Shown here: piece after piece, positions 2,947 through 59,700 of the stretch | How positions within the stretch are numbered: the first letter of the stretch is position 1 | Layout: each line of letters opens with the position of its first letter | Assembly (NCBI RefSeq): GCF_024399475.1 | Contig: NZ_CP101620.1 | Span: 1,345,608-1,409,607 of the forward strand | Length of the DNA: 64,000 nucleotides | Direction: 5' to 3' | DNA from: Allocoprobacillus halotolerans | GTDB taxonomy: Bacteria; Bacillota_I; Bacilli_A; Erysipelotrichales; Coprobacillaceae | Made by a program: the position numbers and the translations under genes | Notes under the pieces: generated by a model | What the model was told of the DNA's origin: nothing | What the model saw: only the letters and a program-made list of their open reading frames with translations | The model's database searches: none

Positions 2947-3022
2947 TGGTGACCTGTACGGGATTCGAACCCGTGAATGCATGCGTGAAAGGCATGTGAG
3001 TTAACCGTTTCTCCAACAGGCC
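2947..3022 (-). tRNA. tRNA-Glu (TTC)
   Basis: Complete cloverleaf with encoded CCA. The acceptor pairs GGCCTGT with ACAGGTC (one G-T), and the anticodon stem CATGC/GCATG encloses CTTTCAC with anticodon TTC. It is the last tRNA of the operon. It is the substrate of the GltX encoded near 42 kb. Confidence 0.95.
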
Positions 3023-3029
3023 ACAAAAA

Positions 3030-3105
3030 TGGCGCTTGAAGTAGGACTCGAACCTACGACCGATCGGTTAACAGCCGATTGCTCTACCAACTGAGCTATT
3101 CAAGC
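3030..3105 (-). tRNA. tRNA-Asn (GTT)
   Basis: Acceptor GCTTGAA/TTCAAGC, discriminator G and encoded CCA are all present. The anticodon stem ATCGG/CCGAT encloses CTGTTAA with anticodon GTT. Confidence 0.95.
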
Positions 3106-3115
3106 GTTTTATAAA

Positions 3116-3188
3116 TGGAGCGGGTGATGGGAATCGAACCCACGTAGTCAGCTTGGAAGGCTGAAGTTCTACCATTGAACTACACCGC
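3116..3188 (-). tRNA. tRNA-Gly (TCC) with one base missing from the 5' acceptor strand
   Basis: The anticodon loop CTTCCAA reads TCC, and the D-arm, T-arm and CCA end are normal. The 3' acceptor strand is CACCCGC, but the 5' strand reads GCGGTG where GCGGGTG is required, leaving one C unpaired. The tRNA is 73 bases instead of 74. The loss falls in a GGG run, like the other single-base losses in this window, so it may be a sequence error rather than a defective tRNA. Confidence 0.9.
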
Positions 3189-3196
3189 ATTTGAAA

Positions 3197-3285
3197 TGGT
3201 GCCCAGGGCCGGAGTCGAACCGGCACGGATTTTAAGGTCCGCAGGATTTTAAGTCCTGTGCGTCTACCAATTTCGCCACCTGGGC
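3197..3285 (-). tRNA. tRNA-Leu (TAA)
   Basis: Type II tRNA with a long variable arm, acceptor GCCCAGG/CCTGGGC and encoded CCA. The anticodon stem CAGGA/TCCTG encloses CTTAAAA with anticodon TAA. Confidence 0.95.
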
Positions 3286-3301
3286 ATATATCAGTTTTTA
3301 A

Positions 3302-3376
3302 TGGTGACCGCAGGCGACTCGAACGCCTGACCCTCTGATTAAAAGTCAGATGCTCTACCGACTGAGCTAGCGGGTC
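3302..3376 (-). tRNA. tRNA-Lys (TTT) with one base missing from the 3' acceptor strand
   Basis: The anticodon stem TCTGA/TCAGA encloses CTTTTAA with anticodon TTT. The 5' acceptor strand is GACCCGC, but the 3' strand reads GCGGTC where GCGGGTC is required, so the tRNA is 75 bases instead of 76. The missing base is again from a GGG run. Confidence 0.9.
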
Positions 3377-3382
3377 AAAAGA

Positions 3383-3466
3383 TGGTGGGGAGGGGCGGAT
3401 TCGAACCACCGAACCGAAAGGAACTGAGTTACAGTCAGCCGCGTTTAGCCACTTCGCTACCTCCCC
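3383..3466 (-). tRNA. tRNA-Tyr (GTA)
   Basis: Type II tRNA with a long variable arm, acceptor GGGGAGG/CCTCCCC and encoded CCA. The anticodon stem CTGA/TCAG encloses a loop with anticodon GTA. Confidence 0.94.
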
Positions 3467-3471
3467 GTATA

Positions 3472-3547
<76 letters not shown>

Positions 3548-3550
3548 AAA

Positions 3551-3626
3551 TGGTGGAGGTTAACGGGCTCGAACCGCTGACCCTCTGCTTGTAAGGCAGA
3601 TGCTCTCCCAACTGAGCTAAACCTCC
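3551..3626 (-). tRNA. tRNA-Val (TAC)
   Basis: Acceptor GGAGGTT/AACCTCC with encoded CCA; the anticodon stem TCTGC/GCAGA encloses CTTACAA with anticodon TAC. Confidence 0.95.
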
Positions 3627-3630
3627 AACA

Positions 3631-3706
3631 TGGCTGGGATAGCTGGATTCGAACCAGCGCAATGACAGAGTCAAAGTCTGTTGCCTTACCGCTTGGCTAT
3701 ATCCCA
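3631..3706 (-). tRNA. tRNA-Gln (TTG)
   Basis: First tRNA of the operon. The acceptor TGGGATA/TATCCCA has the U1-A72 pair typical of tRNA-Gln, and the loop CTTTGAC gives anticodon TTG. A glutaminyl-tRNA synthetase gene lies near 40 kb, so this tRNA may be charged directly. Confidence 0.95.
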
Positions 3707-15841: not shown

Positions 15842-15920
15842 GGTGGTGCTCCTCTCTGCTTAAGTGAGTAACTATACAGAGGACCACCACAGACACAAAT
15901 GCATAGTTACTCACTTAAGC
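15841..15920. repeat. Nested inverted repeats beside the IS1595 transposase
   Basis: GCTTAAGTGAGTAACTAT (15858-15875) is repeated exactly in inverse at 15903-15920. A second pair, TGGTGGT(GC)TCCTCT and AGAGGACCACCA, interleaves with it. These are probably the element end plus a target structure; the other end of the element was not identified. Confidence 0.55.
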
Positions 15921-16084
15921 ATACTTGTATTTGCTTAAATAAGCTATGCATATTGTATCATAAATGGATGAAAACAACGACACAGTGCAAAAAATATGAT
16001 CTTAAATTAAATAATATTAAAGGAATTATAATAAAGGAGTTCATGATAAATGATAGCCAGTATACCTTTCCTCTTTTATCCATC

Positions 16085-54074: not shown

Positions 54075-54351
54075 ATGGAATCAATCATTATCGAAGTGAT
54101 TTATATAGTTATGATGTTTGTTGGAATTATACTTTACGAAGCAATCAATGATAAGTGTATTATATGTTTTTTTGGTCAATCTTTCTTTCCTAATTTGTTT
54201 CAAAGAAAAGGACAAGAAAAAAGATTCAAGATTGGTTGGCATTTTTTTATTTGTATTCTCCGGTGTTCTTGTTTTGCATCAAAGTTATATTTTACGCATG
54301 TTGAAAATCAGTTGTTTTGCCAGAAAAAACTTATCCTCAGATAAGCTTTAA
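54075..54351 (+). pseudogene. Small membrane protein, frameshifted
   Basis: The protein starts MESIIIEVIYIVMMFVGIIL after GAGGTGG and, if the T-run at 54167-54173 has six T instead of seven, continues FLVNLSFLICFKEKDKKKDSRLVGIFLFVFSGVLV to a stop at 54351. That gives about 92 residues with three hydrophobic segments. It overlaps the purF stop on the other strand by four bases. No family was recognised. Confidence 0.5.
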
Positions 54352-55751
54352 TCATCTTGAAATTCATTATCATAAAGAGGCGTCACATAATGACGGTTGA
54401 AACAAGCCGTGCATAAATCACAGGTATGTTCCTTTTTAAAGTGAATAGATTGTTTTAATCCTTCTTCGCTAATAAAGGCAAGTGAATCAGCACCAATATA
54501 TTCACAAAGTTCAAGTACGGACATTTTATGTGAAATGAGTTCATCTAAAGTTGAAGTATCAACACCATAGAAACATGGATAACGAATAGCAGGTGAAGCT
54601 ATTCTGACATGAACTTCAGTTGCTCCAGCTTCTTTCAGTAAAGCAACAATACGTTTTGAAGTTGTGCCTCTAACAATGGAGTCGTCAATCATGATGACTC
54701 TTTTTTGATTGACGATTGAAGAAACAGCAGAAAGTTTCATACGCACACCTTGATTTCTTAATTCTTGAGTCGGTTGAATAAACGTTCTTCCCACATATTT
54801 ATTTTTAATTAATCCCATTTCATACGGAATATGCGATGCTTCAGAATATCCAATAGCAGCTGAAATAGATGAATCAGGTACACCAATCACAATATCCCCG
54901 TCAACAGGACTCTCCTTATAAAGTTGTTTTCCCGCATTTTTACGTGTCGTATGAACATTAATCCCATCAATAATACTATCAGGACGAGAGAAATACACAT
55001 ATTCCATTGCACAGATTTTATCATGAATAGGGTGTTTGGTATAAAGGCGAGAAAGTAATTGATTGTCTTTGACTCTAACAATTTCACCTGGTTCAACATC
55101 TCTGATAAACTTAGCACCAACAATATCTAAAGCACATGTTTCTGATGCAAAAACATAAGCACCATTAGGTAATTGCCCAATTGTCAGAGGTCTTAAACCG
55201 TAGCGATCTCTAATCGCATAAAGACGATCTTCTAATAATATTAAAAAAGCAAAAGCACCATCTAATTTTTCTAATGAAGCACAAATACGATCAATCATAT
55301 GTCCTTTTTGACGTTTGATCAAATGTCCTAGGATTTCTGTATCAGAAGAAGATGAGAAAATACTTCCTTGAGCTTCAAGTTCAGCCTTTAAGACATTGGC
55401 ATTGACAATATTTCCATTATGACAAATACCCATATCACCATTTAATGTTCTAAAAAGTAAAGGTTGGACATTCATAATGCCACCACCACCAGCAGTTGAA
55501 TAGCGGACATGTCCAATCGCATGAATACTTTCCATTTGATTGAGTTTGGCATCATTGAAAACTTCTGTGACAAGTCCTTCACCTTTATGAATAGAAAGCT
55601 GATGATTATTTGCTGTTAATATACCAGCACCTTCCTGTCCACGATGTTGAAGGGCATGTAAACCATAATAACAAAGTTTAGCAGCGTCTTGATGTTGAAA
55701 AACACCAAAAACACCACATTCTTCATGCATTTCTTTTAAATCATTATCCAT
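54348..55751 (-). CDS. purF: Amidophosphoribosyltransferase
   Basis: The 467-residue enzyme has a short propeptide before the nucleophile Cys12 in EECGVFGVFQ, class II glutaminase motifs (GHVRYSTAGGG, ICHNGNIVNA), the PRPP motif VIMIDDSIVRGTTSKRIV and C-terminal CDLCTACF with cysteines that may bind an Fe-S cluster, as in the Bacillus-type enzyme. It starts de novo purine synthesis. The 5' leader has a long hairpin that could control access to the ribosome site. AAAGGAGAAC precedes the ATG. Confidence 0.96.
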   Translation of the reverse strand: MDNDLKEMHEECGVFGVFQHQDAAKLCYYGLHALQHRGQEGAGILTANNHQLSIHKGEGLVTEVFNDAKLNQMESIHAIGHVRYSTAGGGGIMNVQPLLFRTLNGDMGICHNGNIVNANVLKAELEAQGSIFSSSSDTEILGHLIKRQKGHMIDRICASLEKLDGAFAFLILLEDRLYAIRDRYGLRPLTIGQLPNGAYVFASETCALDIVGAKFIRDVEPGEIVRVKDNQLLSRLYTKHPIHDKICAMEYVYFSRPDSIIDGINVHTTRKNAGKQLYKESPVDGDIVIGVPDSSISAAIGYSEASHIPYEMGLIKNKYVGRTFIQPTQELRNQGVRMKLSAVSSIVNQKRVIMIDDSIVRGTTSKRIVALLKEAGATEVHVRIASPAIRYPCFYGVDTSTLDELISHKMSVLELCEYIGADSLAFISEEGLKQSIHFKKEHTCDLCTACFNRHYVTPLYDNEFQDD

Positions 55752-55758
55752 TCTTGTT

Positions 55759-55855
55759 CTCCTTTATATTAAGGAATAGGAGATATACTATTGAAATTTG
55801 TTGTATAAGATGTAACACAAAAAATTGATATTTTGGGATTCAATATCTCCTATTC
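55759..55855 (-). promoter_or_regulatory. purF 5' leader with mutually exclusive pairings
   Basis: On the minus strand the leader begins near 55855 with GAATAGGAGATATTGAA (55855-55839), which pairs with TTCAATAGTATATCTCCTATTC (55795-55774). The 3' arm's TATCTCC can alternatively pair with the ribosome site AAGGAGA (55765-55759). This arrangement of anti-anti-SD, anti-SD and SD is like a translational switch. No known riboswitch class was recognised. Confidence 0.55.
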
Positions 55856-55861
55856 GTGTTT

Positions 55862-55890
55862 ATTATAACGAAATATGAGTTTGTTTTCAA
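55862..55890 (-). promoter_or_regulatory. purF promoter
   Basis: On the minus strand TTGAAA (55890-55885), exactly 17 bases, TATAAT (55867-55862). Transcription would start near 55855 and give a leader of about 100 bases. Confidence 0.75.
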
Positions 55891-55929: not shown

Positions 55930-55958
55930 TTGACAAAGGTACTCCTTTGTAGCATAAT
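55930..55958 (+). promoter_or_regulatory. glnN promoter with operator-like palindrome
   Basis: TTGACA (55930-55935), 17 bases, CATAAT (55953-55958). The palindrome ACAAAGG-TACT-CCTTTGT at 55933-55950 overlaps the -35 box and fills the spacer, a good place for a repressor. It does not match the GlnR consensus TGTNAN7TNACA. Confidence 0.7.
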
Positions 55959-56005
55959 GCAAGATAAGCAAACGTAAAATAGGCGTATATAAGGAGTGAT
56001 AGATT

Positions 56006-58096
56006 ATGGAAAAGAAAATAACTGATATTTTTGGTACATTGGTTTTTGATGAAGAAGTAATGGAAGAAAGACTTGCAAAAGATACTTTCAGAGAACTTCA
56101 AAAAACGATTAAAGAGGGGAAATCATTAAATATTAAGATTGCTAATGCTGTTGCGAATGCAATGAAAGATTGGGCAGTAGAACATGGCGCAACGCATTAT
56201 ACGCATTGGTTTCAACCAATGACAGGTGTAACAGCTGAAAAACATGATGGGTTTATTGGAACGAACAGAAATGGTAAGGTTATTTTAGAGTTTTCTGGGA
56301 AAGAATTAATTAAAGGGGAACCGGATGCCTCATCTTTTCCAAGTGGAGGTTTACGTGCCACATTTGAAGCACGTGGTTATACAGCATGGGATCCAACATC
56401 ATATGCTTTTATTAAAAATGGTGTATTGTGTATTCCAACAGCGTTCTGTTCTTATTCAGGACATGCTTTAGATAAGAAAACACCATTACTAAGAAGTATG
56501 CAGGCTGTCAATAAACAAGCTTTACGTATTTTAAAATTATTTGGTAATGAAGATGTTAAAAGTGTTAAAACAACAGTAGGTCCTGAACAAGAATATTTCT
56601 TAGTTGATAAAAAATATTATGAACAAAGAAAAGATTTAATTTATACAGGAAGAACTTTATTTGGAGCACCATCTCCTAAAGGACAGGAAATGGAAGATCA
56701 TTACTTTGGAACAATTAAAAGTAGAGTTCAAGAATTTATGAATGAATTAAATGAAGAATTATGGAAATTAGGTGTCCTTGCCAAAACTGAACATAACGAA
56801 GTGGCACCTGCTCAACATGAATTAGCACCTATATTTTCAACAACAAATATTGCGACAGACCACAATCAATTAACAATGGAATTGATTCAAAGAATTGCTA
56901 AAAAACATGGGACGGTAGCATTATTACATGAAAAACCATTTGAAGGTATTAATGGAAGTGGAAAACATAACAACTGGTCATTATCAACAGATACAGGTGT
57001 GAACTTGTTAGAACCAGGCGAAACACCATATGAAAATGCTCAATTCTTAATCTTCTTATGTGCGGTTATTAAAGCTGCTGATGAACATCAAGATTTATTA
57101 AGATTGTCAGTCGCAACAGCTGGAAATGATCATCGTTTAGGAGCAAACGAAGCACCACCAGCCATTATTTCAGTATTTTTAGGTGATGAATTAACAGAAG
57201 TCTTAAAAGCCATTGAAGAAGATCGTGCTTATGATTCTAAAGAAAAAGAAGTAATGAAGATTGGGGCACATGTTTTACCAAAATTCCCTAAAGATACAAC
57301 GGATCGTAACCGTACTTCACCATTTGCTTTTACAGGTAATAAATTTGAGTTCCGTATGCCAGGGTCAAGTTCTTCAATTGCAGGATGTAATATTGTTTTA
57401 AATACAGTCATTGCAGATGAATTAAAACAATTTGCTGATATTTTAGAAAAAGCACCTGATTTTTCTTCAGCATTACATGCTTTAATTCAAGGAACAATTA
57501 AAGAACATAAACGTATTATTTTTAATGGTAACGGTTATGATGATGCTTGGGTCGAAGAAGCAAAAAAACGTGGATTATTAAACTTACGTACAACACCTGA
57601 TGCTTTACCATATTTTGTCAAAGATGAAAATATTGAATTATTCAAAAGACATAAAGTCTTTGATGAAGAAGAAGTACGTTCTCGTTATGAAATCATGATG
57701 GAAGAATATGTGAAGATTTTAAATATTGAAGCCTTAACAATGTTGGATATTGCACAAAAAGAAATTTTACCTGCAGTGAGTCAATATTCATATGACTTGG
57801 CACAAACATCTACGTTGAAAACAAGTGCTGAAGTTGGTTCAGTATATGAAAAAGCTATGTTAAAGGATATTTCACAATTATTAGATGAAGCTTATCTAGC
57901 AACACAACATTTAAAAGATGTTCTAACAAAAGCACCAAGTTTAGATGGTTTTGAACAAGCAGCTTACTATTATCGTGATGAAGTCATTCCAGCTATGGAT
58001 GCTTTACGTGCACCATGTGATAAACTTGAACAAATCACATCAAAAACTGCATGGCCATTCCCAACTTATGGTCAATTGTTATTTGGTATTATATAA
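56006..58096 (+). CDS. glnN: Glutamine synthetase type III
   Basis: The 696-residue protein has the GSIII N-terminal domain ([29 protein letters not shown]), and catalytic GS motifs [47 protein letters not shown] and [12 protein letters not shown]. The length is right for GSIII, which forms a dodecamer. It makes glutamine from glutamate, ammonia and ATP. It is followed by asnB and gltB, both glutamine users, in one direction. AAGGAGTG precedes the ATG. Confidence 0.96.
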
Positions 58097-58120: not shown

Positions 58121-59700
58121 ATGTGTTCAATTATGGGGTATAGTTCAAAGTCTATAAAAAAAGAGGTGTTTTTGAAAGGATTTGAAAGAACACATACAAG
58201 AGGACCGGATGATATGCGTATCGTAGATACGGGTGAAGGACTACTTGGATTTCAACGTTTATCTATTATGGGATTAAATGAATATGGGATGCAGCCATTT
58301 CAAAGAGGTCAACATTATGTAGTCTGTAATGGGGAAATTTACGGATTTCGTGTCATCAAAGAGAAATTAATGAAGCAGGGGTTCACTTTTCAAGGGGAGA
58401 GTGATTGTGAAATCCTGCTTCCTCTTTATCAACAAATGGGTGTCGATATGTTTAGACAGCTTGATGGAGAATTTGCTTTGATTTTATATGATGGTGACCG
58501 AAAAAGTTTTATTGCCGCAAGAGATCCAATTGGTATTCGACCATTATTTTATGGTTATGATGACAATCAACATATTGTCTTTGCTTCAGAAGCTAAAAAT
58601 TTGGTTGGTATCTGTGAAAAAATTATGCCATTTCCACCAGGACATTATTATCAGGATGGTCAGTTTATCTGTTATCGTGATATAAGTGAAGTTAAAGATT
58701 ATCATCATGATGATTTAGATACGATTTATATAAAGATTCATGATTTATTAGTGAAAGGCATTGAAAAAAGATTGGATGCTGATGCACCACTTGGATTCTT
58801 GTTAAGTGGTGGTTTAGATTCATCACTTGTCTGTGCTGTGTCAGCTCGTCTTTTGAAAAAACCTATTCGTACTTTTGCGATTGGAATGGAAAAAGATGCC
58901 ATTGATTTAAAATATGCCAGAGAAGTTGCTGATTTTATTGGTAGTGCCCATACGGAAGTGATTATTACCAAAGATGATGTGATTGAAGCATTAGAACCAG
59001 TAATCTATGCCTTAGGCACTTATGATATAACAACCATTCGTGCATCGATAGGAATGTATTTACTTTGTCAATATATTCATCAACATACTGATATACGTGT
59101 GTTATTAACGGGGAAATTTCTGATGAATTGTTTGGCTATAAGTATACAGATTTTGCGCCAGATGCAAAAGCTTTTCAAGAAGAAGCAGAAAAACGTATTC
59201 GAGAATTATATATGTATGATGTCTTACGTGCTGATCGTTGTATCAGTGTTCATTCTTTAGAAGCAAGAGTTCCTTTTGGAGATTTAGCTTTTGTGGATTA
59301 TGTGATGCATATTGACCCAGAAAAGAAAATGAATACTTATGGTAAAGGAAAATATTTATTAAGAAAAGCATTTGATAAAGGTTATTTACCTGAGAGTATT
59401 TTAATGCGTGAAAAAGCAGCGTTTTCTGATGCAGTGGGACATTCTTTAAGTGATGAATTAAAAGCTTATGCTGAATGTTGTTATAGTGATAAAGAATTTG
59501 AACAAAAATGTAAACAATATGATTTTGCGAAACCTTTTACAAAAGAGTCTTTATTATATCGTGAAATTTTTGAAAAATATTATCCACATCAAGCACATAT
59601 GGTTAAAGATTTTTGGATGCCTAATCAAGCATGGGAAGGATGTCAGGTCAACGATCCTTCTGCAAGATTTTTAGCAAATTATGGTGATAGTGGGAAGTAG
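58121..59700 (+). pseudogene. asnB: Asparagine synthase (glutamine-hydrolysing), frameshifted
   Basis: The protein has the glutaminase domain starting with nucleophile Cys2 (MCSIMGYSSK; RLSIMGLNEYGMQPF; CNGEIYGFR) and the synthetase domain with PPi loop FLLSGGLDSSLVC. The break is at GGGG 59110-59113, where five G give LLTGEISDELFGYKYTDF. Both halves are otherwise intact, about 526 residues in total. As a homopolymer loss it is probably a sequencing error. The enzyme converts aspartate and glutamine to asparagine and glutamate. Confidence 0.88.

Follow-up and report, generated by a model that had tools for sequence, protein, structure and literature searches.

Does purF, whose enzyme takes the first step of purine synthesis and commits PRPP and glutamine to it, carry a regulatory RNA of its own between promoter and ribosome binding site? 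In the 64-kb stretch of DNA analyzed here (the window), the gene lies on the minus strand (54348-55751, ATG at 55751) and encodes an amidophosphoribosyltransferase of 467 amino acids, which we take to be PurF from an earlier sequence-only reading and from the N-terminal propeptide-CGVFG layout, as in Bacillus PurF. By our own reading of size and sequence, the divergent neighbor that starts at 56006 on the plus strand is probably a type-III glutamine synthetase (glnA). The purF promoter, TTGAAA-17-TATAAT, occupies 55862..55890 of the minus strand, with the -35 box TTGAAA running from 55890 and the -10 box TATAAT, which does not change across five of five Massilimicrobiota species, ending at 55862; transcription should therefore begin near 55855, the predicted start being the first base of the 5' arm of the leader. 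Since the interval originally proposed (55759-55890) takes in the promoter too, the leader RNA itself spans only about 55857-55752, a length of ~105 nt. No intrinsic terminator was found in this leader, the only terminator-like site on the minus strand (55950-55933) being located upstream of the promoter, and transcriptional control by attenuation therefore lacks support.

The leader, all parts of which are given on the minus strand, opens with the 5' arm GAATAGGAGATAT (55843..55855), the 5' strand of helix P1, which mimics a Shine-Dalgarno (SD) sequence and would serve as an anti-anti-SD. Together with the 3' arm ATATCTCCTATTC (55774..55786), which holds the anti-SD TCTCCT at 55783-55778, it forms a perfect 13-bp inverted repeat with a 56-nt loop in the window leader, and the purF SD AAGGAGAA follows at 55757..55764. 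The 3' arm thus has two alternatives, i.e., to pair with the 5' arm over 13 bp or to mask the SD (TCTCCT/AGGAGA), with duplex energies of -16.9 and -9.0 kcal/mol, respectively. The proposal of the sequence-only reading that this arm can hide either the 5' arm or the ribosome site was borne out, both pairings being present on the minus strand and conserved in five species. The 5' arm is part of an invariant 5' block, CGAATAGGAGATATTGAATCC(Y) (55835..55856), at the predicted transcription start, within which an alternative hairpin, GG-A-GAU[AUUGA]AUC-CY (55835..55850), would take up the 5' arm in an OFF state. The interior holds the P1b 3' strand TTCAATA (55789..55795), whose partner is TATTGAA (55845-55839), and a weak inner hairpin P2, UUGUGUUA-CAUC-UUAUACAA (55801..55820), with an invariant 3' side, ACATCTTATACA (55813-55802), and a drifting 5' side.

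Is such a repeat more than chance? Among the seven perfect inverted repeats of at least 11 bp with a loop of 20 to 120 nt in the window, it ranks second in length, and dinucleotide shuffling of the intergenic region produced a repeat of such length in 0.3% of cases. Folded by itself, the window leader is only mildly unusual, its z score being -2.1 or -1.1 according to where the ends are set. The alignment fold energy of five species amounted to -17.6, compared with -3.6 ± 2.2 for column shuffles (z score of -6.5), and none of 1,000 shuffles was as low. The strong evidence for an element beyond chance is comparative. The longest repeat of this kind in the window is a 19-bp perfect one, TGCTTAAGTGAGTAACTAT, with a 27-nt loop at 15857-15921.

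The comparison covers five species (G000 to G004) of one genus of gut bacteria, Massilimicrobiota, the name being taken from matching records. In each of the five, the promoter is followed in unchanged order by the 5' arm, the 3' arm with TCTCCT, and the SD AAGGAGAA, and three stretches are invariant: the 21 nt of the 5' block, the 12 nt of the P2 3' side, and the 11 nt of ATCTCCTATTC. These stretches are under strong selection, because just 47 of the 165 fourfold sites of purF (28.5%) are invariant. The gap between the arms varies from 48 to 57 nt across species without helical phase, as would be expected for RNA loops. P1a never varies among the five species and shows no compensatory double change, so covariation neither supports nor rejects the main helix. 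Two substitutions in P1b of G004 retain pairing via G-U, and the pairs of P2 are lost and retained with about equal frequency, leaving the inner hairpin poorly supported.

The two competing folds were compared through ensemble energies computed with one helix imposed at a time, for ON that between the arms and for OFF that between anti-SD and SD. The ON fold is favored by 4.5 to 5.7 kcal/mol in three species (ON/OFF of -23.3/-17.7 in G000, -23.7/-19.2 in G002, and -21.6/-15.9 kcal/mol in G004), and the OFF fold is favored by 1.1 to 2.8 kcal/mol in the other two (-23.8/-24.9 in G001 and -23.4/-26.2 kcal/mol in G003). The gap between the folds therefore stays within about 6 kcal/mol, and the predicted default state is not uniform, with OFF as the ground state in G001 and G003 and ON in the other three, which counts against a switch. 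The SD region of G001 and G003, GAAUAAGGAGAAUAU, nearly repeats the 5' arm (GAAUAGGAGAUAU) well past the SD core and forms with the 3' arm an SD-masking hairpin of ~15 bp (z score of -3.5); this extended copy is more than SD function alone requires. The invariant AUCC, which is unused by the main helix, is predicted to find its partner in the 5' arm, either GGAGAU or UAGGA, so that the OFF fold has a place for both arms, and a 5' self-hairpin (the GGAGAU form or the overlapping UAGGA/UCCUA) was obtained for all five 30-nt prefixes, at -2.5 to -4.2 kcal/mol. In predicted folding during transcription, the arm helix forms once the 3' arm has been made, ahead of the SD, and ON would hence be the default on kinetic grounds, barring the intervention of a factor. 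Mutually exclusive folds, one of which hides the SD, are conserved in all five species, as expected of a translational cis-regulatory leader.

The distribution of the element was then considered beyond the genus. An exact 19-mer search among 84,980 species, from which near copies of the window's genome were possibly left out, returned four records, all of them Massilimicrobiota, and a covariance-model search of 43 genomes of the family and 196 of the order gave the five Massilimicrobiota as the only convincing members. Five weak covariance-model matches were inspected and set aside: two are short hairpins lying immediately upstream of an SD-ATG, and the remaining ones lie within or overlap a coding sequence or are devoid of an SD-masking layout. 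A 16-nt 5' block occurs exactly at purF only in each genome, and the 13-mer arm with one mismatch recurs at a low level only. Two short own-genome BLAST matches of the intergenic region (L002 and L003) revealed no further member; the L002 match, upstream of a short regulator-like open reading frame (ORF), has the middle segment alone in common, and the motif is not enriched. The motif TTGTGTAAAATCTTATACAT is found in four genomes, where the G003 copy overlaps a coding-sequence start (MYKILHK...) and was taken as a coincidence. The sister genera do not have the element, the leaders of G025 and G022 being short and the hairpin at the same place in G013 being different, and the element appears to be genus-specific. 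The earlier expectation that related purF leaders should share the arms thus holds at the genus level and fails at the family level. About 90 nt upstream of purF in G013 (L010; another genus, PurF 83% identical), the hairpin GAAAGAGA/UCUCUUUC has an SD-masking alternative, with a leader fold z score of only -1.1; it may descend from the same element, with compensating deletions, or have arisen by convergence.

On these grounds, we give about an even chance to the Massilimicrobiota purF leader being a genus-specific cis-acting RNA switch that governs the initiation of translation. In the ON state, the 5' arm, an SD look-alike at the start of the mRNA, would pair with the 3' arm, and the helix would close around the middle segment and leave the purF SD open. 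In the OFF state, the 5' arm would fold on itself (GGAGAU with AUCCY), and the freed 3' arm would pair with the SD and block the ribosome. The conserved 5' block and the middle segment would sense something, be it a metabolite, a protein, or the ribosome, that shifts the balance, and purF would thereby gain its own control. The sequence of the leader, its conservation, its position, and its competing pairings are direct observations, from which we infer the formation of both folds in vivo, an effect on translation, and a trigger. The basis is five sequences from one genus with sister genera devoid of the element, and in G000, G002, and G004 the dual pairing is possibly a by-product, because any arm that mimics an SD will in any case be able to pair with the real one. 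The sequence-only reading had spoken of a translational riboswitch or thermosensor; a translational switch fits the conserved exclusive pairing, but for a metabolite riboswitch in particular, the missing covariation in the main helix and the restriction to one genus are unfavorable. A thermosensor is not favored: instead of melting alone, the competing fold calls for another conserved partner, the 5' arm, and the fold predicted at 37°C for three of the species is the one in which this arm is paired.

Much of the leader would look alike if its extreme-5' hairpin were a static stabilizer guarding the purF mRNA from 5'-end-dependent decay, perhaps through 30S subunits that bind its SD-like strand (STAB-SD type), and the SD complementarity were a by-product. 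The hairpin begins at the predicted +1, the 5' arm contains an SD-like sequence, and sister-genus leaders may have other 5' hairpins (UAUAGGU/AUCUAUA in G025 and that of G013). STAB-SD and aprE-type stabilizers likewise place a hairpin and an SD-like sequence at the start of the mRNA, and works cited in PMC3997798 provide Bacillus precedents, with 5' stem-loops and 5' SD sequences stabilizing aprE and cryIIIA mRNA. However, a stabilizer has no need of an exact sequence, whereas the invariant stretches of the purF leader include AUCC and the P2 3' side outside the main stem; the SD-masking alternative fold also sets the leader apart from such stabilizers, the extended copy of the 5' arm in G001 and G003 would be unexpected, and we regard this explanation as possible but unlikely. 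Even less probable is a DNA operator, in which the block from +1 to +22 and its inverted copy ~70 bp downstream, or alternatively the semi-palindrome TTGTRTAA-N4-TTATACAA between them, would be the binding site of a repressor controlling purF or its divergent neighbor glnA. Its appeal lies in an invariant site that overlaps the predicted start, in the inverted repeat, and in the imperfect palindrome in the middle; yet the 5' block has no second exact copy in any of the genomes, the palindrome shows no enrichment when set against the reversed control, the arm spacing has no helical phase, the G-U-type changes of G004 would break DNA symmetry, and a Bacillus subtilis-type PurR was not found in five genomes. 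The first four of these points favor an RNA over a DNA element.

Within the translational-switch reading, a metabolite riboswitch proper, the middle region of which would act as an aptamer and bind glutamine or a compound of the purine pathway, is a minority share and, taken by itself, possible but unlikely. The conserved segments enclosed by P1, the anti-anti-SD/anti-SD/SD layout, and the control of the committed purine step are in keeping with it; the occurrence in one genus only, the very small conserved core, and the lack of an Rfam class at an E value of ≤10 argue against it. It is rather doubtful that the leader represents a hitherto undescribed class of riboswitch, restricted to the genus, in which glutamine or a metabolite of the purine pathway is sensed and purF translation is adjusted separately from the ZTP-controlled remainder. 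A leader peptide is the most remote of the alternatives: AGGAG followed by UUG AAU CCY would open a short upstream ORF, the translation of which would melt the 5' arm. UUG-AAU-CCY is present in all five species, with a synonymous C/T change (Pro), but the AGGAG-UUG spacing is only 3 nt, and the frame varies from 6 to 24 codons between species, shifted by indels. A conserved upstream ORF, as in a leader-peptide attenuator, was accordingly not found in the five species, neither frame nor length being kept. The erm-type translational attenuators likewise have mutually exclusive arms and SD masking, but unlike the purF leader they rely on a conserved leader ORF.

How does a translational switch at purF compare with known RNAs? 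By eye, no known purine, PRPP, or guanidine class had been recognized, and an Rfam search of the leader gave no match at the gathering threshold or at an E value of ≤10. The Vibrio vulnificus adenine switch is a translational riboswitch with an anti-anti-SD/anti-SD/SD layout. In this ON-type add switch, one 3' strand likewise serves the closing helix and the SD-masking helix without a terminator, whereas the purF leader has no recognized aptamer, is confined to one genus, and has an unusually long P1 (11 to 13 bp) starting from the predicted +1. Work related to such translational riboswitches has been published (PMC8342710). The PRPP riboswitch class controls purine genes, and the examples presented in PMC5912903 work through a terminator; a terminator of this type is absent at purF, and the PRPP, ppGpp, and guanidine-I (ykkC) classes gave no Rfam match. 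The ZMP/ZTP riboswitch (RF01750) likewise controls purine synthesis, and Massilimicrobiota carries it on its main pur operon, but its covariance model matched the purF leader neither in sequence nor in structure. Translational leader switches are a known kind, of which the purF leader would be a new, narrow case matching no known family. No literature on Massilimicrobiota or Erysipelotrichia with purF and a riboswitch was found.

The main purine operon is distant from purF and comprises purE, C, M, N, H, D, and L with an fhs-like gene in front, named by sequence and order (purM by TIGR00878), and it is headed by the ZTP riboswitch, e.g., at L132:9010-9089 in G000, L133:8362-8441 in G003, and L134:4228-4306 in G004. 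Since purF was not seen among the ORFs listed in this operon and the search for B. subtilis-type PurR gave no match over the cutoff in the five genomes (partial matches concerned the phosphoribosyltransferase part only), purF seems to be regulated on its own. Purine synthesis in Massilimicrobiota would thus apparently manage without a Bacillus-type PurR, with a ZTP riboswitch on the operon and an apparent separate RNA switch on purF. The short, strictly conserved leader offers a compact, testable example of how a new translational switch (or riboswitch) comes about between promoter and ribosome site, for which the sister genera show the state without the element.

A second, distant PurF-like protein (MSGFFGVAS..., ~31% identical) adjoins a ttcA-like gene in the genus (L034 to L037); this paralogue and its neighbor are broken in G000 only (L038), where frameshifts in the assembly are likely. 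A frameshift in the same assembly is also likely for an asparagine synthase-like gene that is split into two overlapping ORFs at 59128-59260 of the window, the minus strand of which carries a nine-gene tRNA cluster at 2950-3706. On the glnA side of the intergenic region, the 5' UTR (55950-56005, plus strand) shows by eye a small hairpin of changing sequence between start and SD in five species (AAACG..CGTTT; GTAAAC GGATAG GTTTAC in G004), with much larger forms in G022 and G013, and this hairpin is a possible glnA leader element.
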